A DNA stretch of 64,000 bases from Apostichopus japonicus. Taxonomy: Eukaryota > Echinodermata > Holothuroidea > Aspidochirotida > Stichopodidae. The stretch's first letter is position 1, and every line of letters begins with the position of its first letter. Shown here in pieces: positions 461-62,800 of this stretch. Below the pieces are notes generated by a model. The model worked only from the letters and a program-made list of their open reading frames with translations, had not been told where the DNA came from and ran no database searches. The stretch spans positions 5,804,501 to 5,868,500 of the forward strand of contig NC_092580.1 of assembly GCF_037975245.1 (NCBI RefSeq), given 5' to 3'. A program made the translations under genes and the position numbers.

Positions 461-821
461 AAGAAAGTGTTTCAAAGAACAATGTGCAGAACGTGACCAA
501 ACATGTAGGTCACTTCCGGGCACAATCTCTTACCGTTTCATCAGCATAGACACTGGTTTCCCTGTACCCGTAGAGGTCTTCAAGGAATCCATTACTCCAG
601 ATCCTCGCTACCAATACCAATTCAAACTAACCAAAGGAAAGGCCAAGTTCTTCAGTCTAGTCACCGGCGAGAACATGGGAACGATCAAGATCATGCGAGC
701 TATCGAAGGACCCCGATCCTTCGAGCTCAGATTGGAGTTACGAGTCATCAGAGATGGTGACGTGTTTGCTAAATATGTGACAATAATATATCTGCATATA
801 GAGGAGGATGTGTTTGGATAA
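461..821 (+). CDS. Fibulin-1, C-type terminal exon (partial gene)
   Basis: Fibulin-1 is a secreted calcium-binding glycoprotein of basement membranes and elastic matrix. Its last domain, the fibulin C-terminal module, comes in alternative C and D forms. This exon begins after an acceptor at 460, gives one base to a split codon, then reads 119 codons to TAA at 819-821. The start has spaced cysteines (KCFKEQC, then QTC) followed by LPGTISYRFIS, which resembles the start of the vertebrate 1C module. A beta-rich segment follows, and the protein ends IEEDVFG. A whole module in one exon is as I recall for vertebrate 1C. The entry phase (one base, A) is the same as that of the exon at 6309, so both can join the same upstream donor. 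AATAAA lies 43 bases after the stop. Hemicentin also carries this module, but the C/D exon pair favours fibulin-1. Confidence 0.82.
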
Positions 822-6308: not shown

Positions 6309-9156
6309 AGGAGATCAAATTGAATGTGTGAAGGACTTTGACCAGTGCCCAACGGAGGACCTAGCTTGCCGAGAGGATGTACTTCAACAATACGCATATG
6401 CTGCCATCTCTCTGCCAAGTATGCCTTATATCTCATCACCGATTCGACTCCTAACGATAGACATCAATAAACCATCTTTTAGCCAAGTCACTTTTCGACT
6501 TATTGCTGGTAATGAGAGAGGTTACTTCACTGTACAGAGGCGCCCAGTCCATTCTGGCAAAGTTAGAGGTAAGTCACTTTTAGACTTATTGCTCGTAATG
6601 AGAGAGGTTACTTCACTGTACAGAGGCGCCCAGTCCATTCTGGCAAAGTAAGAGGTAAGTCACTTTTAGACTTAAGCTGGTAAATGAGAGAGGTTACTTC
6701 ACTGTACAGAGGCGCCCAGTCCATTCTGGCAAAGTAAGAGGTAAGTCACTTTAAGACTTAAGCTGGTAAATGAGAGAGGTTACTAAGAGGTAGTCACTTT
6801 TAGACTTAAGCTGGTAATGAGAGAGGTTACTTCACTGTACAGAGGCGCCCAGTCCATTCTGGCAAAGTTAGAGGTAAGTCACTTTTAGACTTAAGCTGGT
6901 AATGAGAGAGGTTACTTCACTGTACAGAGGCGCCCAGTCCATTCTGGCAAAGTTAGAGGTAAGTCACTTTTAAACTTAATCTGGTAATGAGAGAGGTTAC
7001 TTCACTGTACAGAGGCGCCCAGTCCATTCTGGCAAAGTTAGAGGTAAGTCACTTTTAGACTTAATCTGGTAATGAGAGAGGTTACTTCACTGTACAGAAG
7101 CGCCCAGTCCATTCTGGCAAAGTAAGAGGTAAGTCACTTTTAGACTTATTGCTGGTAATGAGAGAGGTTACTTCACTGTACAGATGTGCCCAGTCCATTC
7201 TGGCAAAGTTAGAGGTAAGTCACTTTTAGACTTAATCTGGTAATGAGAGAGGTTACTTCACTGTACAGAGGCACCCAGTCCATTCTGGCAAAGTAAGAGG
7301 TAAGTCACTTTTAGACTTATTGCTGGTAATGAGAGAGGTTACTTCACTGTACAGAGGCGCCCAGTCCATTCTGCCGAAGTAAGAGGTAAGTCACTTTTAG
7401 ACTTAATCTGGTAATGAGAGAGGTTACTTCACTGTACAGAGGCGCCCAGTCCATTCTGGCAAAGTAAGAGGTAAGTCACTTTTAGACTTATTGCTGGTAA
7501 ATGAGAGAGGTTACTTCACTGTACAGAGGCGCCCAGTCCATTCTGGCAAAGTAAGAGGTAAGTCACTTTTAGACTTAATCTGGTAATGAGAGAGGTTACT
7601 AAGAGGTAGTCACTTTTAGACTTAAGCTGGTAATGAGAGAGGTTACTTCACTGTACAGAGGCGCCCAGTCCATTCTGGCAAAGTTAGAGGTAAGTCACTT
7701 TTAGACTTAAGCTGGTAATGAGAGAGGTTACTTCACTGTACAGAGGCGCCCAGTCCATTCTGGCAAAGTTAGAGGTAAGTCACTTTTAAACTTAATCTGG
7801 TAATGAGAGAGGTTACTTCACTGTACAGAGGCGCCCAGTCCATTCTGGCAAAGTTAGAGGTAAGTCACTTTTAGACTTAATCTGGTAATGAGAGAGGTTA
7901 CTTCACTGTACAGAAGCGCCCAGTCCATTCTGGCAAAGTAAGAGGTAAGTCACTTTTAGACTTATTGCTGGTAATGAGAGAGGTTACTTCACTGTACAGA
8001 TGTGCCCAGTCCATTCTGGCAAAGTTAGAGGTAAGTCACTTTTAGACTTAATCTGGTAATGAGAGAGGTTACTTCACTGTACAGAGGCACCCAGTCCATT
8101 CTGGCAAAGTAAGAGGTAAGTCACTTTTAGACTTATTGCTGGTAATGAGAGAGGTTACTTCACTGTACAGAGGCGCCCAGTCCATTCTGCCGAAGTAAGA
8201 GGTAAGTCACTTTTAGACTTAATCTGGTAATGAGAGAGGTTACTTCACTGTACAGAGGCGCCCAGTCCATTCTGCCGAAGTAAGAGCTAAGTCACTTTTA
8301 GACTTAATCTGGTAATGAGAGAGGTAACTTCACTGTACAGAGGCGCCCAGTCCATTCTGGCAAAGTAAGAGGTAAGTCACTTTTAGACTTATTGCTGGTA
8401 AATGAGAGAGGTTACTTCACTGTACAGAGGCGCCCAGTCCATTCTGGCAAAGTAAGAGGTAAGTCACTTTTAGACTTAATCTGGTAATGAGAGAGGTAAC
8501 TTCACTGTACAGAGGCGCCCAGTCCATTCTGGCAAAGTAAGAGGTAAGTCACTTTTAGACTTAATCTGGTAATGAGAGAGGTTACTTCACTGTACAGAGG
8601 CGCCCAGTCCATTCTGGCAAAGTTAGAAGTAAGTCACTTTTAGACTTATTGCTGGTAATGAGAGAGGTTACTTCACTGTACAGAGGCGCCCAGTTCATTC
8701 TGCCAAAGTAAGAGGTAAGTCATTTTTAGACTTAATCTGGTAATGACGGTGTTTGCTTCTTTGTACAGATCCACCCAATCCATAGTGAGAGGATAGTCAA
8801 TTGGTAATGAGATGGGCTACTTCACTCTACTACACATGTATCAATTGGATTGTATGAGATATCGTATAACTCACTGTTTGGTTTTGGTAGTTAATGAGGC
8901 TGTTCCAATGATCTGAAGCCATTCATTCAAAGCTTGAAAGCTGCAACCAGTAATCAGTAGGACTCTTCTTTTTTCATTGCCAGATGTGTGAGAATGTTTT
9001 CTGTTTTCCTTTGCAGCAAATGTTTCTCTCATCCAAGCTATTAATGGGCCATATTCCACAGATCTATACCTGGAGATCAGTACCATAAAGAGCAAGCAAG
9101 TGACTTCCAAATCAGTCATTATCATAAGCATTGATATTGGTGCTTACGTTTGGTAG
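6309..9156 (+). CDS. Fibulin-1, D-type terminal exons (two exons)
   Basis: Exons 6309-6568 and 9017-9156 together code about 132 residues of a second fibulin C-terminal module. Exon one enters with one base (A), the same phase as the C-type exon, and reads 86 codons: a CVKDFDQC cysteine segment, then ISLPSMPYISSP, which resembles the ISLP start of the vertebrate 1D module, then GNERGYFTVQRRPVHSGKV. It ends in phase 1 at GAG|GTAAGT. Exon two follows a strong acceptor (TTTTCCTTTGCAG), completes an Ala codon and reads to TAG at 9154-9156, ending DIGAYVW; vertebrate 1D also ends with aromatic residues. The last 84 bp of exon one are the first unit of the minisatellite that fills the intron. Choice of C or D would depend on splicing and poly(A) use. 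Confidence 0.82.
6485..8755 (+). repeat. 84-86 bp minisatellite containing exon end and splice donor
   Basis: About 26 units of 84-86 bp. The first unit (6485-6570) is the coding end of the D-type exon, and the rest fill the following intron. Each unit runs AAGTCACTTTT...CTGGTAATGAGAGAGG...CATTCTGGCAAAG(T/A)(T/A)AGAGGT, so each junction recreates GAG|GTAAGT. I count 27 junctions, of which 23 keep this donor perfectly. Exceptions include 6789, 7605 (shortened units), 8287 and 8629. A block of about 816 bp is itself duplicated. Units are not a fixed multiple of three, so read-through from the exon stops at 6651. Confidence 0.95.
8761..9016 (+). other. Non-repetitive end of the D intron
   Basis: Unique sequence between the minisatellite and the second D exon. 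It ends in a good polypyrimidine tract and CAG. Confidence 0.6.
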
Positions 9157-40317: not shown

Positions 40318-41090
40318 GGTTGGGTCTTGAACTCATGACAGTGTGTTTGTCTGCCTCTCCCAGTCCAGAGCACTAACCAACTGCGCCACAGCAACTGTTG
40401 AGAAATAAAGCTCGTTTCTAATATTTAAGGTTCATAATGGAAGGAAAGAGGTATAAGAATAGTAAAAGGAAAACTGCCTCAACTGGGGTTTGATCCCTAG
40501 ACATTGAGTTTGTCTTGCACTCCAGGTACAGGCACTACCAACTGCGCCACAGCAACTGTTGAGAAATAAAGCTCGTTTCTAATATTTAAGGTTCATAATG
40601 GAAGGAAAGAGGTATAAGAATAGTAAAAGGAAAACTGCCTTAACTGGGGTTTGAACCCTAGACATTGAGTTTGTCTTGCACTCCAGGTACAGGCACTACC
40701 AACTGCGCCACAGCAACTGTTGAGAAATAAAGCTCGTTTCTAATATTTAAGGTTCATAATGGAAGGAAAGAGGTATAAGAATAGTAAAAGGAAAACTGCC
40801 TTAACTGGGGTTTGAACCCTAGACATTGAGTTTGTCTTGCATTCCAGGTACAGGCACTACCCACTGCGCCACTGTAACTGTTGAGAAATATTGCTCGTTT
40901 CTAATATTTCAACTTCAGAATGGAAGGAGAGAGGTATAAGAATAGTAAAAGGAAAACTGCCTCAACTGGGGTTTGATCCCTAGACATTGAGTTTGTCTTG
41001 CACTCCAGGTACAGGCACTACCAACTGCGCCACAGCAACTGTTGAGAAATAATGCTCGTTTCTAAAATTTCTACTTCAGAATGGAAGGAG
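40318..41090 (-). repeat. tRNA-derived SINE units in a tandem array, five copies
   Basis: On the minus strand each unit carries a box A (TGGCGCAGTTGG) and box B (GGTTCAAACCC or variant) at tRNA-like spacing, then a shared tail. The box-A complement recurs at 40,381, 40,542, 40,703, 40,864 and 41,025, exactly 161 bp apart each time. Copies two to four are almost identical; the first and last differ more. Acceptor-stem pairing looks poor, so these are SINE heads rather than working tRNA genes. Confidence 0.85.
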
Positions 41091-49089: not shown

Positions 49090-52000
49090 CTACCCGTGCA
49101 CAGTGATTGCACTCTTTTCTGATGGTTGTGACTCTTGTTGCTTCGGATATGCACTCGAGGGGCCATAGTTCTCACCTTCACTCAGCTGCCAACAAAGTTC
49201 CAATAGTAATATTTGGTAATGAGTATGTCAATGGATATTGATGGACACAGTGACTGGTTACAAGCAGCAACTGAGATTCTCTGTAGATCTGTATGCAGTC
49301 CATTCTGATAGCAAGTTCCACCACTTTTCAGATGTATTGTATGGTGTGACTGCCAACAGTAATTCTAAGTTCAGTAGTAGGGGTGGTACCTGACCGAGTG
49401 AGGCACCTGTAAAGGTCTACTTGGAAATTGCTGTGACTAGAGAAAAGAAAACCATCAACTATTATTCAGCCTGTTGTAAATTGTACTGAACATTAAACTT
49501 GCAGTCAAAGCCTCTATAATGTGGGATGCATATCTCTACTCTTTCAAATAATTTCCTCAAATGAAAATACAATACGGAAAGACAATGGAGTGAGAATAAT
49601 GAATTTCCAATATAGTCTGTTGATCTCAGAGGTCAAATATTTAATTATTATATGACTATTTTATTAATGGGTCAAACTATGCTGAAGACCAAATATGGTC
49701 ACCTATTTTCAAGATACTAAACAAAATAAGTGAGGTTTATCTGATGCTTAAATCTAGGGAATATGTTGGTGAGTGGGACATTTAATGTACTTAAATATCA
49801 GGTAAATACTGATGAATATAAATTGGACCAACTTACAAAGCTGTGATAGATCAAGTAAATTCAGTTCTAGGCTGCATATGCACTGCCTCTCACTTAGCTT
49901 TGCTACTGGGGCAAGTACCTTAACACTGTAAATGCTTGCGATGGCCAAATTTGTAGTTTATAATAAATATTTACCATAAAAACCAACACTTAATTATGGA
50001 CCTCTTGCAAGGAATTTTTATAAGGCAAATACTCTGTGCTAGAAGTCAATGTTACCATTTTTGACATGATGCATTTTCCAACACACTGTCCGTTAAATAT
50101 GAGAGATAAAATTTTGATCTTCTTTTTGAAGAATTTGTCATCTAAAACACAAAGAGAAATATGGCAATTAAGTCATACCATTGATAACTGTTAATCCCAA
50201 AGTGACTGACATGGGACCCAAACTATCTCAAGTTATCACTTAAGTCTGCAAATGGCTAATAGCATATTTTGAACCAGAGTTAACCTTGTCACTTCTAGAG
50301 GCTTTCCAAAGCAAAGCAACTCCTTCATAATATGCTTTACATCCACTCACCTGTAAGGTGTATACCATTTCATCTAGCTCTAAGAGTTGTTGGATGTCAT
50401 TGGTGTCTGCGGCCAGCTTTAGTATGTTGATATCCAGGGTCTTAGCTCTACTTTTCTTGGCATTCGTCACTTCACCAGGTGTTGATTCTGGTTCACATTC
50501 TTCGGCATTCTTCAACAAGCTTTCCTGGTGCTTCAAATCCCCCATGGACTTAAATCTTCCTTGGGCTGTGTTAAGAGCTGAAAAAATGTCCTTTGGTGGT
50601 GAATTCCTCCTGATTTTGGGTGACATAAAAGTGTGGTCCCACATGAGCTGGTTCATATTTGGCTGTTTCAAGCGTCGCCAATGGACGAGACGAGAGGAAT
50701 CAATCTGTGAAGGCACATATGGATGAAAACGCCTGCTTGGTCTTGTGGTTGATGGTTTGCTCTTTCCCGATGATGAGGATGATGAAGAAGGTAACTGCTT
50801 GTCTTTCCATTTGCTTTCAGATGTCACTATTCTGGCTGGCTTTTTATCAACCTGTTTAACAATTTCTACTTTCCTGATGTTTTCAGGCACTTTCCTTTCT
50901 GCTTGGCTCTCTTCATTACCTTTTATAGTACTCACACCTGTACCTTCTGTTGCCTTACTCTTCAAGTTAGTTTCTACTGAAATGCTTTCCTTGTTTTGTT
51001 TATCTCCAACAGCTGCTTCATTCCTCTCTTTCTTCTGTGTATCACTCACAACCACTCCAACCAAACTTTCTATCCTTTGTGTATCAGTGAGCTTAACTAC
51101 ACTTCCTTGTGTGCCACTTTGATTTTTTTCTTCCACACACGGTTCCCTCTCTCTGTGCTCTACCTTTGAAGAATTCTCTTCTTGTAGATTCTTCTTTTCC
51201 GCTCCCAGCTTCGCTTCTGTTGCAGTTGTAAGGTCATCAGGTGGTGCTGCTTTAGATCCTGTTCTGACTTGCCCAGATGTTTGGTAAACTTTATTTGAAA
51301 CAGTCGCTTTTGGGAGAGGAACTACAATTGAAGACTTCAATGTGACAGGTGAGAGACCAACTTCATCCACCACTGTCCAACTATTGGTTCTAGTTGGGGT
51401 CTTAAGCTGGCCAGAATAGACTTCACTTAACCTCTGGTTACTGACGGGAGACTTATCTTTGATGATCACATCCTCTTTCAAACTGTCTGTTGTCTTACAT
51501 TGAGCATTTTGCCCAGTTTTATCCACACAATTGTCTCCCTTCAAGTAGCTTACTTGATTCCCAATTGTGGAAGACGTATCAGTAGCATCTTTACTAACTT
51601 TCTTTGTATTTCTTAGCTCTGTCCTTAGACGTTGCAACTGAACAACCGCAGTTTTCAAGTTGATCTTCACAGTCCTTAGGTTTGGATCTACAGATGTAAT
51701 CATGGACGAGGGTTTGACGTCTTTCTCTGTCTTGGTATGATCCTTTCCTTTTGTTCCAAGTTTAGGGATTTGAAAGCCTCTCTCTAATGGCATGCTGGGA
51801 AGAAATGCTAGCTTCATCTTCTTTGCTGCAAGGGGAGAGGATGTTCCACATTTCCTTTTCTGCAGATTGTCAACCCCTTTGGTAGATTTAGGGGAAGTAT
51901 TCATTGCTCTCTGACCTTTGCCTTTCTTGGTGGGTGATTTGAAAGTCACAACTCTTTTTGTTTCCTTTACATGAATACCTTCCCCAACACCAGATTTCTC

Positions 52001-55000
52001 ATTCGTTCCATGGAGTACTTTCAGTTTGGGCTTTACTGTATTGGGGAGCAGTTGTTTAGTAATAGCAACTCTCCTTCTGGAAGTGGTCTGTTTATCAACA
52101 TCTATCTCACTACCGGAGATCTTGCTTTTCTTTTTCTTCTTACTTTTCTTCTTGGGAGGCTTTTCAATTGTGCTTTTTATTGACTTTGATGATAATTCAC
52201 TCTTTGAACCAACCTTTAAAGAAGTCACTGCTTCATCTGATGTATCCCCAAAAGAATAATCTCTGATGGGTGGAGGCACATTCTTGGTTATTCCACCACT
52301 GTCTGCCTTGGCAAACAACTGCCTCCCTTTGTCATCAGCAACAATGGGCTTGGATTTAAGCTCATCTCCACCACTGTTTGTCATATCCTTGACAATTACT
52401 TTTCTTGGTGGTTCATCACATGTTTGTTCATCAGATTTTCTCATCACAAGTCCTGATAGTGAATTGCCATTGAGGGTCTTAGAACATTTCACTACATTAT
52501 CTGTGTCAATTTGATCTTCTTCAGCCTTGAAACTGTCCAACGAATCCTCAAACAATAGGAATTCATCAATTGAATCATTATCTCCAAGAGACAAAATGTC
52601 ATCATCAACAGACACTGCAAGTCCATCCAGCTCCTGGTTGACATTTTCTTTGGTGGTCGATGAACCACAAACTGTCTCTGTTTGGTCATTTTCAAGAGAA
52701 GCGACATTGTCATCACATGTTGAACTTCCATGAGACTTGAGGACTGGTGAACAATGATCTTTCGTCTGATGGGTATCATTTGAGAGTAGACACCCATTCA
52801 TTGTTGCAACAGTTACTGTATCATATGAGCTGGTAGATGGCATACAGGTCTCTGTCTTGGTTAAAGTATAGTTTATATCATGTTTTCTCATGACTTCAAC
52901 ATTCTCCTGCATACTTTTGTCTTCAATGGATGTACAAATAGGTTCAGCAGAACTAGGCATATAGCGTACTTCTTCTGTTTTCAATCCAACCTTATCAAAG
53001 TGAGCATCTTTCCCAAGTGTACACACATCAGCTTTACAATTTTGCAGTATATTACCACTGGAAACAATCTTGTCAACATATCCTTTGATACCAGTCTTTT
53101 CTTCGATAACAACTCCTTGGGTCTGATTATTCATTTTTCCACTTGATGTATCCACTTGGCTAACACTTTCATTGACCACAAGTGATTTGGAGGCTGTAGC
53201 ACAACCATGCACAGGATCACATTTCTTCATGCTGAACTCATCTGTGTAAGATGAACTCTCCTTATGAACAAATTCCTCAACTGGTTGTTGAATTGGACAA
53301 GGAGTGCTTTCATTTGTCATAACATTGGCTTCACATTTGGCATAGTGCTTTGATGACAAGCTGTCCCATCTAGTCATATGTGAATTGTAGGAAAGCCCTG
53401 AATTTTCAAGTCCAGTAGTATCTTTCTTTGTCTTGAGAACTAACAGTGATTCTGGAGCTGAATCCACTTGAAAACCATTGCATGAAGAAACTTCACCATC
53501 ATTAATACCAATATTTTGTGATAAATTCTCTCCTAACTGGTTTGACACCTCCGAGGCACTGTGAGTAGGAATGCTACCAATGTTCACCTGTTCTTCAGAG
53601 CTAACATTCACACATGTCTTGTCTTCACATACATCCTTACAGATTAAACAAGGTTTGTACTGTCCCTCACAGTTCACATTATCTCTTCGATCAGCATAAT
53701 TTGCATGTGAACATTTCTTTGGTGATGAATTCACCTTTTCTTGTTTTTGAGTAGTGATAGAATCAATACCCTTGTTCAGCATATCCTCTGTTTGACCTTC
53801 TCTGACCTTCACTGAAGGAACCTTGTCGTCTCTTGTTGTTATACTAGTCATGATTCTGTTGATCCCTTCCTTTGTTGCAGACATTGACACTTTGGCAATT
53901 ACCTCCTCAGTCAAGATTTCATCTGTTGTTGATGCATCATCTGAAGAGATTATGGGAAGTTGTTTGCCTTTTCCACACAAATCGTGACTGGACAGCATCT
54001 TTAAACTGCATTCTTGCTCACTCTTCTCTCCACTCTTGTTAACATCACCAGCCACTGAAGTTACATGTTTATCATTACCTCTCAGAGTGACCATATCGAC
54101 CACATTTTGATTGTCTGCTTCGGAGGAACCTTGAAAAGATGAGCATTGAGATATTTCGCTTGTCACAAATTCAAGATTAGGAGGTCCTTTGGAGTGTACT
54201 TCCTTCCTCTCTTTTTCAGTTAAATGTTCCACAGGTTTTAAGACATTGAAGAAACCATCATCAGAGCTAGTTGGAGGTGATGGAACTTTGTCTATTAAGG
54301 ACAATTCAGGTTCCTCAACAGGTTTCACACTTTTACAAACACTTTTTGATATTTGTCTTTGGTTCCCAGGTAAACCATGGCCAATCACAGCTGATGACTT
54401 TGGTGTCTTGACTATATCACTTTCCCATAGGTGCCCTTCTTTAGATTTCTGTATATCACTTGCTCGTGGCTCACGTGGAATGCCTACTGGGCTTTCGGTC
54501 ACACCTCCGTTCATTTTCCTTTGAATTCCATTTACATCAGATTGTCTAAGGGTCGTGAAGTTTAAGCTAGTGAAAGCACCTCTCATAAAATGCAAGAGTG
54601 GTTGCTGTTGTACCAATGAAAGATACAAGTTTGGTTGTAGTATGTAAGGTGCTCTCACTGCTGGTGTGAAGTATGGTGATGAATATGGCAGATGTCTTGG
54701 GGATGATGAAGTGAACCTAGTTAAAGGGTTAGAGGTAAGGCTTGCAGTATCCTGATTCACACTAGAAAATGTAGATGATTCTTTTGGTTGATGAGACAGT
54801 GAATGTTCGGTGGTTCTTCCAAGCTTTAAAGGCAATAGCAGTTGATTGTATGGTTGTGGGGGATTCCTGTAGCCATTACTAATTTGAACCTGGTGTACCT
54901 GCTGAGACTGTGATGAACTGGCCAGTTGGACAAAAGTCTTCTTATCACATCTGGATCTGTCTTCACATTGGTGCATATCTGTTCCATTCTTTAGACAATA

Positions 55001-58000
55001 TTTGTCATCCAGTTTGTTATTTTCCTGGCAGTGCTCTTTTGTCTGTACAGGGCTTCTCTTCTTTTGACGTGAAAACAAAGAGCGATGCACAAAAGTAGCA
55101 GACTTCAGGGCTGAGGCAATTTTTATTCTTTTAGACAAAATCTTGTATGTATTTTGCACAGTTTTAATTAGTGTGAGTCTGCTTGGAGAAGACAATCCAA
55201 TACCTTCAGCTGAGAAGGAACCAAATACATTACGATGCAGAAGTGAGGTAGTAAAGTCCTTCTTAAAGGGCAAAGTACGGGGAGACGTTCCTGGTATTTT
55301 TAAGGGACTATGACATGTGGAGAGAATTTTACTTTGAAATTTCCTCCGTCCAGCCTCAACAAGCGATGAAGAAACAACAGTGGTTCCACCATCAATTGAG
55401 CACCTTGAGACTTTACATGCAAGGTCATTAAGACAGAGGACAGCTCGTTGCACTTCTTCAGGATTTTGTCTTTTTGATGCTTGTCTAAGTTTCTTAGGTT
55501 TCATCTTCTTTCTTCTCTCCTTGGTATCTTTCACTCTCCACTTAAGATGCCATTTTGTTCCCTTGAAACCATCTTCCTTCTTTGATACCTGAAAACCTTT
55601 TATTTTCCTTAAATCCTTCGCAACCTTTCCAGCATGTTTCTTCAGTTTCTTCAATGTCTCTGTTCGTAGTTCATCCACCAAGCTCTTTAGTTCTTTTTTG
55701 TTTTCTAAATTGCTTGGTGACGATAACCTTTCTGGAGATATCATCTTTGCATTTTGTCTCTTCCTTTGTTGATCAGGCAACTTTTTCAGAATTGATTCTG
55801 TTCCTTTACCAATATCTGAATCCACATCTTTGGGCTCTGTGTGTGTGCTGTCCATAACAGTACCTTCAGAGTTACATCTTGACAGCAAAGATGCCATAGC
55901 CCCAGACTGGAAGACTGCAGGTTGCAACTGACCGACGCTGGCATTTAAGCCTTGTTTCTCTTTCCAAGATGTCTTCTTTCCAACTTCATTTGAGAATGGT
56001 TCAGAAGAGAAACATTTATTTTCCACAAAGTGCAGAGGATCCTCTTTTGAGCAGCCATTTAGGTTTTTTTTAGTGTCCCTTCCTTCACATATGTCTTGTC
56101 CTGTTCCCCTGTCTAGCTGTTGATACCCTTCTAGCTGTTCATCCAACATTCTCATGATTTCTGGGGTTGATATCGTCTCATCATCACCAGAGTGACCTCC
56201 AGGTTCAGTGCCAGCACATTCATAATCTGGCAAGTCTTTGGTAGGTAGAGTATCATTGTGAAACACTTGGTTTACCTCCTGGTGATACTGATTTCTAGAA
56301 TTAGGGTGTTTAGATGGAGAATAGGAAGTGCTGTCAATTACCGGCACACTTTTCTTCCCTATCATATCTTTGTTAGTTGCAGCTGTGTGAAGGAAATACT
56401 TCTGTTGGGAATTTTCTGCTTCTTTAAAGAAATTCATTCCAACTTGCATGCCTCTTGATTGCCAATTTGCAGTAATGTCAGGGTGATAGGGCTGGGGGTG
56501 TAGCTTACCATGCAGGAGAGGTGTGGATTTTTCAAAAGGGTCATCCAGTATCCCACTATTACCTGAACTACATGGTAGCACTGGGTCCTCATCCCCTTCT
56601 AAATCATTGTCTGATATTAAAGTCATCATTTCCTGATGAAGAAGTCCATTTGGCCTATTGAAGGTAGTTTTGAGAAACCTTTGATTCTGGAAAAACTTCT
56701 CTTCTATTGTTTGCTTCTTCAAATTTCCATCAAATTCACTGTGTTCCACATTTGATGAAACACTACTCGACTGAGATGCTGAACACTTGAATGCAATTGC
56801 AGCTGGACTTTTCAATGCAGTTCCAAATAGGATAGATAGCAATTTGCCATCTCCTTTAGTTTGACGGATTGGTGTCACAATATGGCTGTCACAAGAAGGA
56901 AAAGATGACTGAATTGGTGAATTTTCACAGCTGTCAAGGTCTGTAGTATCATCCATGCTGATGCGATTTGTAGTAGCTGTATCCAAGGCAGCAGTATCAA
57001 AGAAATCTAGATAAGTTGCAAGAGGATCAGACGGCAAAAGGAAACTGTTATGCAAAGATGAGGTGTCATCACTACAGTGTGAAGTGTCACGACTACCATC
57101 TTCGTCATCATAACCCTGTGGTGTCAACTTATGATGACTGTTGTTCTCCGATGCAGTTAGTTTTCTGCTTTCATCCTGATGCAACACTCTGCTATTGGAA
57201 ACAAATTGATCATTAACTTCAATGCTCCCTAGACTTTGTACATGGGTAGGACCTTGGTCTTCACAGGTTTTGATGTTCTTTGTCACTTCTCTTTGATCAC
57301 TAGAAGCAAACAAAACTATACCATTGTCAATCTTAGATGTCTGTTGTACATCAGACCTATCCAAGTCAGACAAGGTGTGCATCTTTGTATATAATGAACT
57401 TGATGAATCACAATCAGTCCCAGGTAATCCAGGAACATCTGATGCAAGATTAGCCAGCGTTTGCTCTTCATACATTTCACTACCTGTATTGTAAATCTTA
57501 CAGCCAGGAGCCTTGGCAAGACATTTTTCATCTTCATGTGTTATCCTATCAGGCTGCATCTCACCATGTTTGTCATAGATACCATCCATCAAATGTGACA
57601 CAGACCTTATTTCAACTTTGCTATTACCTCGTAATCTAGCATTGCCATCTTCAAGTTTCTTAACACAATCAACTTCTTTATACACAAAATTCACTTCAAT
57701 CTCTGGACTTGGGCTGTTGTCATCACTAAAGGACATATCTAACAACCCTGAACAATCATCACTCCCACTAATGATTTCATATCCTAAATTGTCTTCTTTT
57801 CCTGGAGTTTCGAAGGTGTGTAATTGTTGTAACATCTCTTTAGAATGTACACAAGCTCCTTCATCTCTAAGAAGATGTTGTAGCAGCTTCTCTTTCACTT
57901 GTTTACCAGCCCCTACCAAGGTGGGAGGTTGTAGCAGCTTGTCTTTCAAATCTTCATCATGTCCTCCCAAGAAGGGAGGTTGTAGCAGCTTCTCTCTCAA

Positions 58001-59844
58001 ATGTTCATCACCTCCTCCCAAAAAGGGAGGTTGTAGAAGCTTCTCTTCCACATGTTCATCACCTCCTCCCAAGAAGGGAGGTTGTAGCAGCTTCTCTTTG
58101 ACATGTTCATCACCTCCTCCCAATAAGAGAGGTTGTAGCAGCTTCTCTTTGACATGTTCATCACCTCCTCCCAAGAAGGGAGGTTGTAACAGCTTCTCTT
58201 TCGAATCTTCATCACCTCCTCCCAAGAAGGGAGGTTGTAACAGCTTCTCTTTCAAATCTTCATCACCTCCTCCCAGAGGTTGTAGCAGCTTCTCTTCCAA
58301 ATTTTCATCACCTCCTCCCAAGAAGGGAGGTTGTAACAGCTTCTCTTTGACATGTTCATCACCTCCTCCCAAGAAGGGAGGTTGTAGCAGCTTCTCTTCC
58401 AAATTTTCATCACCTCCTCCCAAGGAGGGAGGTTGTAACAGCTTCTCTTTCACATGTTCATCACCTCCTCCTAAGAAGGGAGGTTGTAACAGCTTCTCTT
58501 TCACATGTTCATCACCTCCTCCCAAGAAGGGAGGTTGTAGCAGCTTCTCTTTCACATGTTCATCACCTTCTCCCAAGGAGGGACGTTGTAGCAGCTTCTC
58601 TTTCACATGTTCATCACCTCCTCCCAAGGAGGGAGAGTGTTGCAGCTTCTCTTTGACATGTTCATCACCTCCTCCCAAGAAGGGAGGTTGTAACAGCTTT
58701 TCTTTCACATGTTCATCACCTCCTCCCAAGGAGGGAGAGTGTTGCAGCTTCTCTTTGACATGCTCATCAACTCCTCCCAAGAAGGGAGGTTGTAACAGCT
58801 TCTCTTTCAAATGTTTATCACCTCTTCCCGAGATAGGCGGTTGTAGCAGCTTCTCTTCCAAATGTTTATCACATCCTCCCAAGAAGGGAGGTTGTAACAG
58901 CTTCTCTTTCACATGTTCATCACCTCCTCCCAAGGAGGGAGGTTGTAACAGCTTTTCTTTCACATGCTCATCACCTTCTCCCAAGAAGGGAGGTTGTAAC
59001 AGCTTCTCTTTCAAATGTTCATCACCTCCTCCCAAGAAGGGAGGTTGTAACAGCTTCTCTTCCACATGTTCATCACCTCCTCCCAAGGAGGGAGGTTGTA
59101 GCAGCTTCTCTTTCACATGTTCATCACCTCCTCCCAAGAAGGGAGGTTGTAGCAGCTTCTCTTTCACATGTTCATCACCTTCTCCCAAGGAGGGACGTTG
59201 TAGCAGCTTCTCTTTCACATGTTCATCACCTCCTCCCAAGAAGGGAGGTTGTAACAGCTTTTTTTTCACATGTTCACCACCTCCTCCCAAGAAGGGAGGT
59301 TGTAGCAGCTTCTCTTTCACATGTTCATCACCTCCTCCCAAGAAGGGAGGTTGTAACAGCTTCTCTTTCACATGTTCATCACCTCCTCCTAAGGTGAGAG
59401 GTTGTAGCAGCTTTTCTTTCATATGTACACCAGCTCCTTCTGGAGTGAGAGGTTGTAGCAGCTTCTCTTTCAAATGTTCATCACCTCCTTTACAAGTAAG
59501 AGGTTGTTCAATCTTCTCTCTCTTTCTTTCTAATGTGAGAGTTTGTTGGACATTCTCTTTCAAATGTGCACCAGTGTTTCTTAAGGTGTGATCTTTCATA
59601 CATAGATACATTTGTGGTGACTTCTCTCTCAAATAGGCTTTTTTCTTTGATTTTCTTTTCTTCTTGTGGCAGTTCAACTTATTTGAAGTTTTTGAATATT
59701 TGTTACAAACAGAATGCTTTCTATTCTTTGGTGTGCTAAATGGAATTGTTGCTCTAAATGACAGCTTATGAGAGGTTTGTCTTCTGACTACCAAATGTTG
59801 CCTTTCCAGTGTTCTGACCACAAACCCATTTCCCTCATTGGTGA
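49090..59844 (-). CDS. Unrecognised giant protein with 17-residue repeats (3' part of gene)
   Basis: Exons on the minus strand: 59,844-50,351 (9,494 nt); 50,141-50,056; 49,925-49,837; 49,406-49,262; 49,180-49,090. The giant exon starts after TTTCTGCAG with two bases of a split codon, codes 3,164 residues and ends CAG|GTGAGT. Its frame runs on to a stop at 50,240, but that part is intron. The four short exons join in phase (0, 2, 1, 2) and read as protein, including PPLLLNLELLLAV and SEKWWNLLSEW, ending SAITVHG. The borders GTAACA, GTAACC and CTGAG are weak. Contents of the giant exon: a basic start with KKKRKSKKK near residues 55-62; about 32 repeats at roughly 110-670; a long Ser/Asp/Lys-rich disordered part; a basic block near 1400-1480 (KKLKKHAGKVAKDLRKIKG); a lysine run near 2570 that could be a nuclear signal; and a denser end near 3040-3164 (LVHWRRLKQPNMNQLMWDH). 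It is probably nuclear. The family is not recognised, and the upstream exons were not found. Confidence 0.75.
49407..49836 (-). other. Intron between the third and fourth recognised exons of the giant gene
   Basis: AT-rich, bounded by GTAAGT and CTTTACAG. Nothing else seen. Confidence 0.55.
50142..50350 (-). other. Intron after the giant exon
   Basis: Donor GTGAGT and a strong acceptor (TTCTCTTTGTGTTTTAG). Open reading through it to 50,240 is accidental. Confidence 0.6.
57830..59510 (-). repeat. 51 bp coding minisatellite (17-residue repeat, about 32 units)
   Basis: The unit in protein is GGGDEHVKEKLLQPPFL with small changes (PPFL/PPSL/RPSL, HV/HL/ENL). One unit is 12 bp short yet keeps the frame, and two units read KEKLQHSPS. 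Edge units (QPLTPEGAGVHM, LLRDEGACVH) are more diverged, as expected if the array grew from its middle. Each unit has a charged helical half and a Pro/Gly half. The copies are very alike in DNA, so their number is likely to vary between individuals. Confidence 0.95.
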
Positions 59845-62800
59845 CTGCAGAAAAAAATGCATATAAAAATTAACAGGGCTTAGAGTGTATCCTTTATGAA
59901 ACAACATTATAGACAAAGCAAATGATACATCAGCCTTCAACCATGCTTGTTGTGACCATTTCCTTATATTTTCCACAGTAGCTCATTTCAAATGTGTTTT
60001 GATTTTTGCTTAAATCTGAAAAATATTCCAATACATGTAAGGCTTTTGGACAAAAAAATCTTCCCTTGAAGGCTTGATACCACTTGAAAATTAACAATGT
60101 TCAGCTCTGTTTACGAAACAAAATCATATCTGTAAAATGATATATTCCTTTCTGCATATAGGAATGTTAAAAACTAAATGAAGTATGCATAAACCAGAAA
60201 GTATGTTATTGTTAATCTGTGCAATTAACAATTCTTGGCACAAAATGGAACCTGAAAAGCATTAATTCAAATATGAATCATAATTTTAGTAACACAAACA
60301 GGAATCACAATACACCAAAGTTATATGAAATACTTACAGAAAATATCAAATAAATCAGAAAAAAAGTTAAGTGTGTCAACTTACATTATTCTCTTTTCAG
60401 TACATCCATATTCGTGAAACAATATCACCAGTTTAATGTGATAAATACCTTCCATTGCTCTCCACCATCACATCACTTCTGCCTAATTTTTCTTTCCATC
60501 TTCATTTTCCAACTTCCTTTATTGTCAAATTACTAGCTCAACCTATCCAAACTCACCAAGACACCCTTTCAATACTTGATTAATTATTTTCTATCAGGAA
60601 ACATTTCATACAGAAGTATGGAAAAGTATATTGATTGCCACATATTAAGAAAGACCATAATGAAAACATTTCATGGTTCCTTGCTGCTGCTCATTGATTT
60701 GATTAAGAGGGAACACTCCAAGTATGTTATGATGAAGCATTCCCTTAAGTAATGTGTACAAACTGTTGTTACCAAAATAATGCTAGTCAGTGCCCTTCAT
60801 ATATATGCATTAAATATTTATAGCTCACATCAGCATGTGTCTGCTATCTACAGATATCACTAATCCATTTTGTTTTTAAAGATCAAACATGATTTTCACA
60901 TATGTAACTGCACTTTGATATATAATCCCTCACCCAGTAAACTCATCATTAGTCACTACATGAGTACCAAAAACAATTAGGTCCACCTACTCACTAAAAA
61001 TGGTAATGATCAATAATTGCCTTGGGAAGTTATTAATCATACAAACTTGTAACCTAAATAATGCTAAGCCATACCTCCTCATGAATACACACGTATCAAT
61101 TGCAACACACATTGTGTAGGCTACCTACCAATAACACACTCACGTTTATGAAACTGTGACTTATGATTGTCAAGTAATTGCAATTTGAAGATTTTGACGT
61201 TTGACTCTGTGATCTCATTAATATTCATTATATGAGCACCAAAATCCATATGGTTTATCTAATCATTTTGGACCACCCACCCACCAAGTATGTTATTGAT
61301 CATTCATTCCATTGTCTTGTTATTTTGCATACAAACTTCTGTTACCAAAATAATACTCAGCCCTGCCTCCTCATAAATATGCATGATATCAATTGCAAGA
61401 CACATCAGCATGTAAAGGTCATCTACCAATTCACCATACCAAGTTTGAAGACTCCCTAACTTGTGGTTGACAAGTTATTGCAATTTGAAGATATTGACAT
61501 TTGACCCTGTGACCTCATTAATATTCATAACATCAGCACAAAATTAATAAGGTTCATCTAATCATTCTGGACCATCCACCCACCAAGTATGGCATTGATC
61601 AATCATTCCCTTGTCTAGTAATTGTGCAAACAAACTTGTTACAAAGTTCCCCCTAGCCCGCCTCCTCATAAATATGCATGATGTCAGTTGCAAGAGGAAT
61701 CAGCATGTAAAGTTGGTCTACCAGTATCACCATACCAAGTTTGAAAAACACTTCAACTTTAATATAGTTGCCAAGTTATTGCAAACAATTTGAAGATTTT
61801 GATGTTTAACTCATCAATATTCATGATATGAGCACCAAAATCAATAGGGTTCATAAATTTATTATGGACCACCTACCCACCAAGTATGGCATTGATCAAT
61901 CATTCCCTTGATGAGTTATCATGCATACAACAAAAGTGTCACACATATACCAGCAAGATTACAAAGGTTCCTTTGCTTTCAGCAAGGAACCAAAAATGCT
62001 GTAGCAACAGTCATATGGTACAAGGAAGCAGACAGATATATATGTTCAGGTAGAGGTTTGTGCTCAGGTTAGGTATATGCAGATTGACAGCAGTGTAACC
62101 AATTGGATAAAGTGGTAGTGCAACCGCAAATCACAACCTAAGATTTAACAATTTGATGGTAAATCAATACATTTGGCATCTAACTAACACCCCATATGTA
62201 CTCTTATTCTAATTCTAGGTTACACTTTATATTGTATATTTTCAGGGATATTTTTGTAATGGATAGGGATCTTTGTGTTGATCTGTCGAGACAATAGAAG
62301 ATTGTTAATTCATCCAGCTAATCTTATTGGTTTTTTTTATATGATTCCCTTTTGCATTAAATCAGCTCTTCTTTGTTTGTCATTTTTAATTCAGCACTGA
62401 CAGGTTTTAAATACTTTACTAGGCAGTAGAATGCTTCATATGCTAAATAACAATTTCTGGTTGTCATACAAACAGCTACTTATTTGTCCCTTTAAATTCA
62501 GCACTGACAGGTTTTAAATGCTCTACTATGCAGTAGGATGCTTCATATGTTTAATAACAATTTCCGCTTGTCTTTTAATAACAACAGCATTGCATGCTCT
62601 GAAATGACAGCAAAATTTATGTTGAGAGAATATTAAATCGATGTGGTTCTAAATGGAACATTCCTTCTGACTGGGTTAATACATTCATGATGCATATTGA
62701 TTGATTGATAAAATTGTATGAGACATGCTTATTAAAATCCATGCCATTATTTTTAATCAAATTTATATTTACATTTTACAGGCAAGATAACATGCAGTAG

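Follow-up and report, generated by a model that had tools for sequence, protein, structure and literature searches.

A mirage-like minisatellite multiplies the 5' splice site of a fibulin exon in the sea cucumber Apostichopus japonicus

Where a minisatellite runs across the end of a coding exon, the splicing machinery is confronted with a row of equivalent 5' splice sites, which raises the question of which of them can serve the gene and whether the row is put to use or only tolerated. Such a situation had been predicted for a fibulin gene in a 64,000-nucleotide stretch of the Apostichopus japonicus genome, hereafter called the window. Our analysis indicates that the array is a genuine and striking structure, although of a known kind, and that it is most likely passive.

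The assignment to fibulin stood up, since the Fibulin_C matches and the intron phases identify a fibulin-1-like gene with a C-type last exon upstream of two D-type exons. EGF-like exons are located upstream of both alternative ends, and the last shared exon, which ends in phase 2 (L003:6939), can join either the C-type last exon at 461 or the first D-specific exon at 6309 in phase. The C-type exon lies within an open frame at 429-821, and its acceptor and phase fit the upstream shared exon. The Fibulin_C domain (PF22914) matches the C-type exon as a whole and is split across two exons in the D form; the second D-specific exon yielded 19.7 bits by itself, which is below the cut-off, and 51.7 bits over positions 2-97 when joined with the first. 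A search of the PDB with the D-type domain gave no match up to E = 1.

The coordinates of the array, its unit, its 27 junctions and the 23 intact donors that make up the predicted 23-fold multiplication of a splice site were all confirmed (Table 1). Most units (25) are 85-87 bp in size and two are 47-48 bp. The unit had been described as the end of the D-type exon plus the start of its intron, and it does span this boundary, but not in equal parts: unit 0 consists of the last 84 bp of the first D-specific exon and contains nothing of the intron except its GT. Positions +3 to +6 (AAGT) of every donor, including the first, correspond to the exon-derived start of the next unit. As the unit by chance opens with AAGT, each junction restores a near-ideal donor, and the array itself therefore supplies the end of the functional splice site. 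Since the AAGT is borrowed from the next unit, whole intact units can be gained or lost with the same junction being rebuilt.

Table 1. Coordinates of the fibulin exons, the array and its splice signals in the window; a slash marks the splice junction
Feature	Coordinates	Strand	Basis and remarks
C-type last exon, stop at 819-821, acceptor TTTCACAG/AAG	461..821	+	Fibulin_C PF22914, 58.5 bits over 522-803
First D-specific exon, 260 nt, phase-1 end ...AAA GTT AGA G/	6309..6568	+	Fibulin_C positions 2-61, 29.1 bits; acceptor CTTTTCAG; phase fits L003:6939
Array of 27 near-identical units	6485..8716	+	Tandem Repeats Finder, unit table, alignment
Unit 0, last 84 exon bp and GT	6485..6570	+	Unit table, alignment
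First donor GAG/GTAAGT, GT at 6569-6570; the only one to give full-length D protein	6566..6574	+	
TAA in frame, unit 1	6649..6651	+	Hit by any transcript that uses a later donor or retains the intron
22 later GAG/GTAAGT donors	6652..8720	+	GT at 6655, 6741, 6874, 6959, 7044, 7129, 7215, 7300, 7386, 7471, 7558, 7690, 7775, 7860, 7945, 8031, 8116, 8202, 8372, 8459, 8544, 8715
Higher-order duplication	6769..8274	+	Exact second copy of 690 bp (6769-7458) at 7585-8274, shifted by 816 bp
Degenerate 3'-edge units of the array	8717..8840	+	25% and 37% substitutions
Second D-specific exon, stop at 9154-9156, acceptor TTTTCCTTTGCAG/CAAATG outside the array	9017..9156	+	Fibulin_C positions 56-97

As had been proposed, the junctions read GAG/GTAAGT, which is kept intact at 23 of the 27. 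The junctions at 6791, 7607, 8289 (GAGCTAAGT) and 8631 (GAAGTAAGT) have lost it, and these four losses represent three events, since 6791 and 7607 carry a single deletion that was copied by the internal duplication. The 23 array copies of GAGGTAAGT were the only ones on either strand of the window, for which a first-order Markov model predicts 0.22 occurrences of GAG/GTAAGT per strand. The run of matches to the ideal donor was 8 bases at all 23 array donors, which is the longest run among the 3828 GT sites on the plus strand of the window and was reached at only five further sites. In the assembly as a whole, the array unit was found at one locus (C20:5810985-5813216), which accounted for 27 of 27 among the matches listed, these counts being lower bounds.

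That only the first donor is needed was borne out by the reading frame. Splicing from donor 1 yields 132 residues from the start of the exon to the stop codon in the second D-specific exon, with Fibulin_C covered at positions 2-97 of 99, whereas the Fibulin_C match obtained with donor 2 ends at profile position 60 of 99. Only donor 1 gives a full-length D protein, because the 22 donors that follow all come after the in-frame TAA of unit 1. The distance from this TAA to the exon end is 3 nt for donor 2 and ranges from 89 to 2063 nt for donors 3-23. In mammals, a stop codon about 50 nt from the exon end marks the threshold for decay; by this rule, transcripts from donor 2 would escape decay and those from donors 3-23 would be targets.

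The donors had been expected to form a row of equals, which was upheld by the identical match runs and by the predicted accessibility of the RNA. With flanks of 80 nt, the predicted cost of opening donor 1 was 5.88 kcal/mol, which is within the range of the 23 array donors (4.48-6.40 kcal/mol). As a group, these were costlier to open than 13 other GTAAGT sites in the window (median 5.87 versus 3.75 kcal/mol, the latter with a range of 2.08-6.18). Seven stretches were folded, five of them with intact donors, and a hairpin, GUAAGUC/GACUUAU, was predicted over the donor stretches. Since the stretch at donor 1 had the strongest hairpin of the seven (-8.4 kcal/mol, z -2.64), this donor is not specially open, and selection of donor 1 by RNA structure was rejected on the grounds of the ordinary opening cost and the stable hairpin. 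With neither the donor match nor the predicted accessibility marking donor 1, its position remains. When two equal donors compete in minigenes, splicing often goes to the donor closer to the downstream acceptor, a precedent that would favour the last donor of the array rather than the first.

To describe the turnover of the array, we compared the units with each other. The mean divergence was 4.1% among units 1-26 and 4.6% between unit 0 and units 1-26 (2-7 substitutions each), and the one base private to unit 0 is synonymous (CGA instead of AGA, both encoding arginine). The two units at the 3' edge diverged far more, by 25% and 37% over 81 and 43 aligned columns, respectively. Low divergence inside and divergent edges are the usual picture of a minisatellite that turns over internally and retains old edges. 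Judging from the exact internal duplication of 690 bp in the one haplotype represented here, and by analogy with the 6 and 3 units of two lancelet haplotypes (PMC3087553), the copy number is likely to vary between individuals. Substitutions were observed in 3 of the 9 donor columns and in 14 of the 78 other columns; the donor columns are thus kept no better than the rest, and there was no sign of selection for the donor row.

Other tandem repeats were recorded in the window. On the minus strand (50240..59869), one uninterrupted open frame encodes 3209 residues with about 31 copies of a 17-residue repeat of the GGGDEHVKEKLLQPPFL type; the repeat corresponds to a 51-bp tandem repeat at 57877-59489. 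A 161-bp tandem repeat at 40322-41089 (4.8 copies) contains the stretch GGGTTTGAACCC, which we take to resemble a tRNA B box, and is possibly a tandem SINE.

The structures that come closest to the fibulin array are the mirages of lancelets, which in the available passages of the papers are described as minisatellite-like duplications of intron-exon boundaries, with units of 10-72 bp in Adh3 and 150-160 bp in globin genes (PMC3087553), and with a further case in troponin C and similar repeats in PGBD5 (PMC3902484). According to the same passages, AG/GT is retained in many units, the Adh3 mirage is somatically unstable, BflGb6 has 6 and 3 units in two haplotypes, and RT-PCR suggests that regular splicing is undisturbed (PMC3087553). 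The fibulin array is like the mirages in Adh3, BflGb6, BflGb9 and troponin C, as far as these passages describe them, in duplicating an exon-intron boundary, in keeping AG/GT and in having a concerted interior and divergent edges (PMC3087553, PMC3902484). Its tandem units span the boundary with the authentic exon end as unit 0, the splice signal is kept at most junctions, and the interior is homogeneous compared to the 3' edge, so that by these anatomical criteria it qualifies as a mirage. Unlike BflGb6, with its 6 and 3 units, it has 27 near-identical copies and a degenerate edge, is located in an echinoderm, and is known here from the sequence of one haplotype. In the titles and abstract openings covered by our literature search, which left most subscription journals outside, no exon-boundary repeats were described in echinoderms or sea urchins. 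The repeats in an earthworm metallothionein gene are intronic, and an exon boundary is not mentioned in the passages available (PMC12783039).

The splice variants of human IFI6 are in frame. A ladder of usable variants of this type was not found in the fibulin gene, where the stop at 6649 comes before all 22 later donors, and none of these could yield a full-length variant. Still, IFI6 shows that a row of donors from a minisatellite has a precedent in humans, in that two downstream repeat units act as donors and give rise to three mRNA species, according to an extract from a citing paper (PMC4526556). In human paralogs located in segmental duplications, tandem repeats at exon boundaries are reported, in the parts of the paper available, to form novel introns and in some cases alternative transcripts, which keep or splice out the repeat; the average unit is 30 bp and there are four repeats (PMC2812944). 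The expansion of a minisatellite that reaches the exon-intron boundary is common to these paralogs and the fibulin gene, but in the latter the acceptor is located outside the array and a single donor keeps the frame. That the human boundary repeats can alter splicing argues, within the limits of the extract, against the assumption that repeats of this kind never have an effect (PMC2812944). The tandem AGGT sites of the polyubiquitin gene UBC, whose units are coding and in frame, are described in excerpts as dual-specific, serving as both donor and acceptor (PMC10809524). Here too, tandem AG/GT is found at the unit boundaries; the fibulin units of 85-87 bp break the frame, however, and the sequence before the AG is purine-rich. 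With the in-frame stop and the poor acceptors added, the array was not classified as being of the UBC type.

To place the fibulin array in the context of the whole assembly, we searched for three AGGTAAGT words at gaps of 0-30, 31-61 and 62-92, and used the reversed pattern for comparison. The motif and its reversed counterpart yielded 64 versus 326, 354 versus 460 and 454 versus 451 matches in the three spacing classes, respectively, where matches are not independent since one array yields many. Arrays of triple AGGTAAGT words were thus no commoner than those of the reversed pattern, which gives no hint that minisatellites start preferentially at donors, and a special seeding of this kind was rejected on these counts.

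The matches listed, which for two spacing classes were the first 100 places (into C5) and for the third all 64, contained 43 arrays. Among these, seven other AGGTAAGT arrays start at the end of a coding exon with a Pfam match above the curated cut-off (TIL, Glyco_transf_21, Y_phosphatase, Kri1_C, MoeA_N, VBS and Aa_trans), a fraction of 7/43 that is neither blind nor complete. In thirteen arrays the donor was preceded by 45 or more open codons; 11 of these were scanned in the frame as printed (L043 in shortened form), L008 in another frame only and L031 after trimming, while arrays with a shorter open stretch (L015, L016, L023) were chosen by eye. At L026, L028, L041 and others, further AGGTAAGT words occur upstream of the one taken as the first. 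Suggestive matches below the cut-off were obtained for a second Y_phosphatase (L015), TSP1_ADAMTS (L021) and a coiled coil (L043/L072), the best score of the last dropping once repeats were excluded. None of 20 arrays of the reversed motif, taken from the listed part of one spacing class, matched Pfam, with only two reading frames of at least 40 codons scanned. Because AGGTAAGT is frequent in real donors anyway, more matches than in the control are to be expected and do not amount to proof of preferential seeding.

The arrays differ in how much of the exon they include. Measured as the ungapped run of exon sequence that recurs in the following unit, the shared part amounts to 84 nt for fibulin, as compared to 16 for TIL, 33 for Glyco_transf_21, 8 for Y_phosphatase, 31 for Kri1_C, 3 for MoeA_N and 9 for VBS, and in the arrays below the cut-off it is 36 for TSP1, 42 for the second phosphatase and 26 for the coiled coil. 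With only 3 nt shared, the MoeA_N case is not a duplicated exon end but an array of intron sequence beginning at the donor. In 9 of 10 arrays (fibulin and nine others) a stop in frame is reached before the second donor, the exception being the coiled coil, in which units of 33 bp stay open for 597 nt; in the Aa_trans array the stop comes just after the first donor. The arrays counted contain 4 to 27 exact AGGTAAGT donors.

Three of these loci have features of their own. At L072 (G000:C22:7785800-7787800), the exon end EKTQLAVLE/GTAAGT is followed by in-frame units of 33 bp with eight GAG/GTAAGT donors, later GAG/GTAGGT, and no stop is reached for 597 nt past the first donor. If spliced, every donor would keep the frame, and an isoform ladder with steps of 11 residues is possible, as is a repeat that is simply coding. 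The Kri1-like locus L069 (G000:C2:28048700-28051700) has 27 AGGTAAGT donors, more than fibulin, at steps of 54 bp (one of 53); its first donor is the exon end, with a stop codon that starts 1 nt inside the intron. Finally, L015 (G000:C2:27403941-27405591) and L076 (G000:C2:27561609-27563259) are located 158 kb apart and, ahead of the donor, have exon sequences that resemble phosphatases and are related to each other (HSDYYNANYIE and HSDYYNAKYIE), perhaps as the result of a gene duplication.

Elsewhere in the assembly, COX1 on contig C35 has 10 of 11 AAA codons aligned with asparagine of mammalian-type COX1, and its best chain scored 923.2 bits with the echinoderm code (table 9) versus 882.4 bits with the invertebrate code (table 5). 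This code points to an echinoderm and led to the rejection of a lancelet origin, which the mirage literature might have suggested; flatworms also use table 9, but a fibulin with C and D ends makes an echinoderm far more likely. Besides C35, five COX1 pieces, each with an in-frame TGA, are located on another contig (G000:C29:14745-31219); perhaps these are extra mitochondrial copies or the result of misassembly.

Several other origins and roles of the fibulin array were considered. The intron itself might have been born by tandem duplication of an AGGT-containing piece of the exon, as could be suggested by exon-derived units that carry AG/GT. In that model the acceptor is the AG of the downstream AGGT copy, whereas the acceptor here (TTTGCAG/CAAATG) is no AG/GT copy of the unit and is located, together with about 175 bp before it, beyond the array. 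With the acceptor at 9016 falling outside the array, this origin was rejected, and we give it very little credence. Just as improbable is that the units are spliced in as exons of 31 nt between CTGTACAG and GAG/GTAAGT, which the original prediction had called conceivable. On paper the idea holds, in that both signals bound 23 stretches of exactly 31 nt, of which 22 are intronic and one is the real exon end. In the three array acceptor copies examined, however, only 8 of the 18 upstream bases are pyrimidines, as compared to 14 and 15 of 18 at the two real acceptors; a single inclusion changes the reading frame, and with three copies a stop is reached whichever of the seven variants is used. An exon of 31 nt is also very short, and pseudo-exons were rejected as likely products because of the weak acceptors and the frame shift. 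An inflation of the copy number during assembly, above all through the exact duplication at the offset of 816 bp, is somewhat less remote, yet still decidedly improbable. The exact repetition over 690 bp speaks for it, as does an aberrantly assembled mirage in the lancelet draft genome, according to the passages available (PMC3087553). On the other hand, the assembly comprises 671.6 Mb in only 35 contigs, the window contains no N, the array is found at a single locus, and the two blocks can be told apart by differences outside the 690 bp. An artefact of this kind would affect how many units are counted, but the array would still exist.

A functional alternative is that the number of donors sets the extent of truncation or decay of the D transcripts and thereby tunes the fibulin-1 C/D ratio. 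The location of the array within the D-specific intron, the same stop after each later donor and a length that is probably unstable, given the exact internal duplication, would all suit such a rheostat, and the human paralogs indicate, in the parts available, that boundary repeats can change splicing (PMC2812944). Contrary to this, the donor columns are no better kept than the others, similar structures are found at unrelated genes of the genome, and the relatives in lancelets are reported, in the passages available, not to disturb splicing (PMC3087553, PMC3902484); we consider a rheostat unlikely. Slightly more credit, although still little, is given to a broader proposal in which exon-boundary minisatellites occur genome-wide in this echinoderm and the outermost donor wins whatever its strength. 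The length of the array would then set a low level of heritable leakage into transcripts that are truncated or decayed, and the output of fibulin-1D and other genes would vary with the length polymorphism.

The explanation that we regard as probable is that the array is a mirage, a minisatellite seeded on the exon-intron boundary, which has grown passively and is tolerated because the outermost donor is used. Tandem copies of the 84-bp exon end and the GT are found in the intron, with duplications of several units at a time inside the array. This reading is supported by the recurrence of the arrangement at unrelated genes of the genome and by the undisturbed splicing reported for lancelet mirages (PMC3087553, PMC3902484). 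The splicing machinery would use the first donor as the one nearest the real acceptor of the 260-nt exon, as in exon definition, and any transcripts from later donors would be truncated or decayed; the array would thus be tolerated rather than selected. Unequal exchange in register between intact units would keep GAG/GTAAGT at the exon end, so that gain or loss of units need not break the gene, and the row of donors is probably harmless.

The locus offers, within one intron, 23 donors that share their core sequence and almost all of their local context and differ only in position. It thereby sets the effect of position, in the sense of exon definition, apart from that of donor strength within a natural gene, and since only donor 1 makes the full-length protein, the reading frame provides a clean readout. 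The recurrence of similar arrays at unrelated genes amounts to a set of natural constructs, and extends mirages, a name met for lancelets only in the parts of the literature examined, to an echinoderm.
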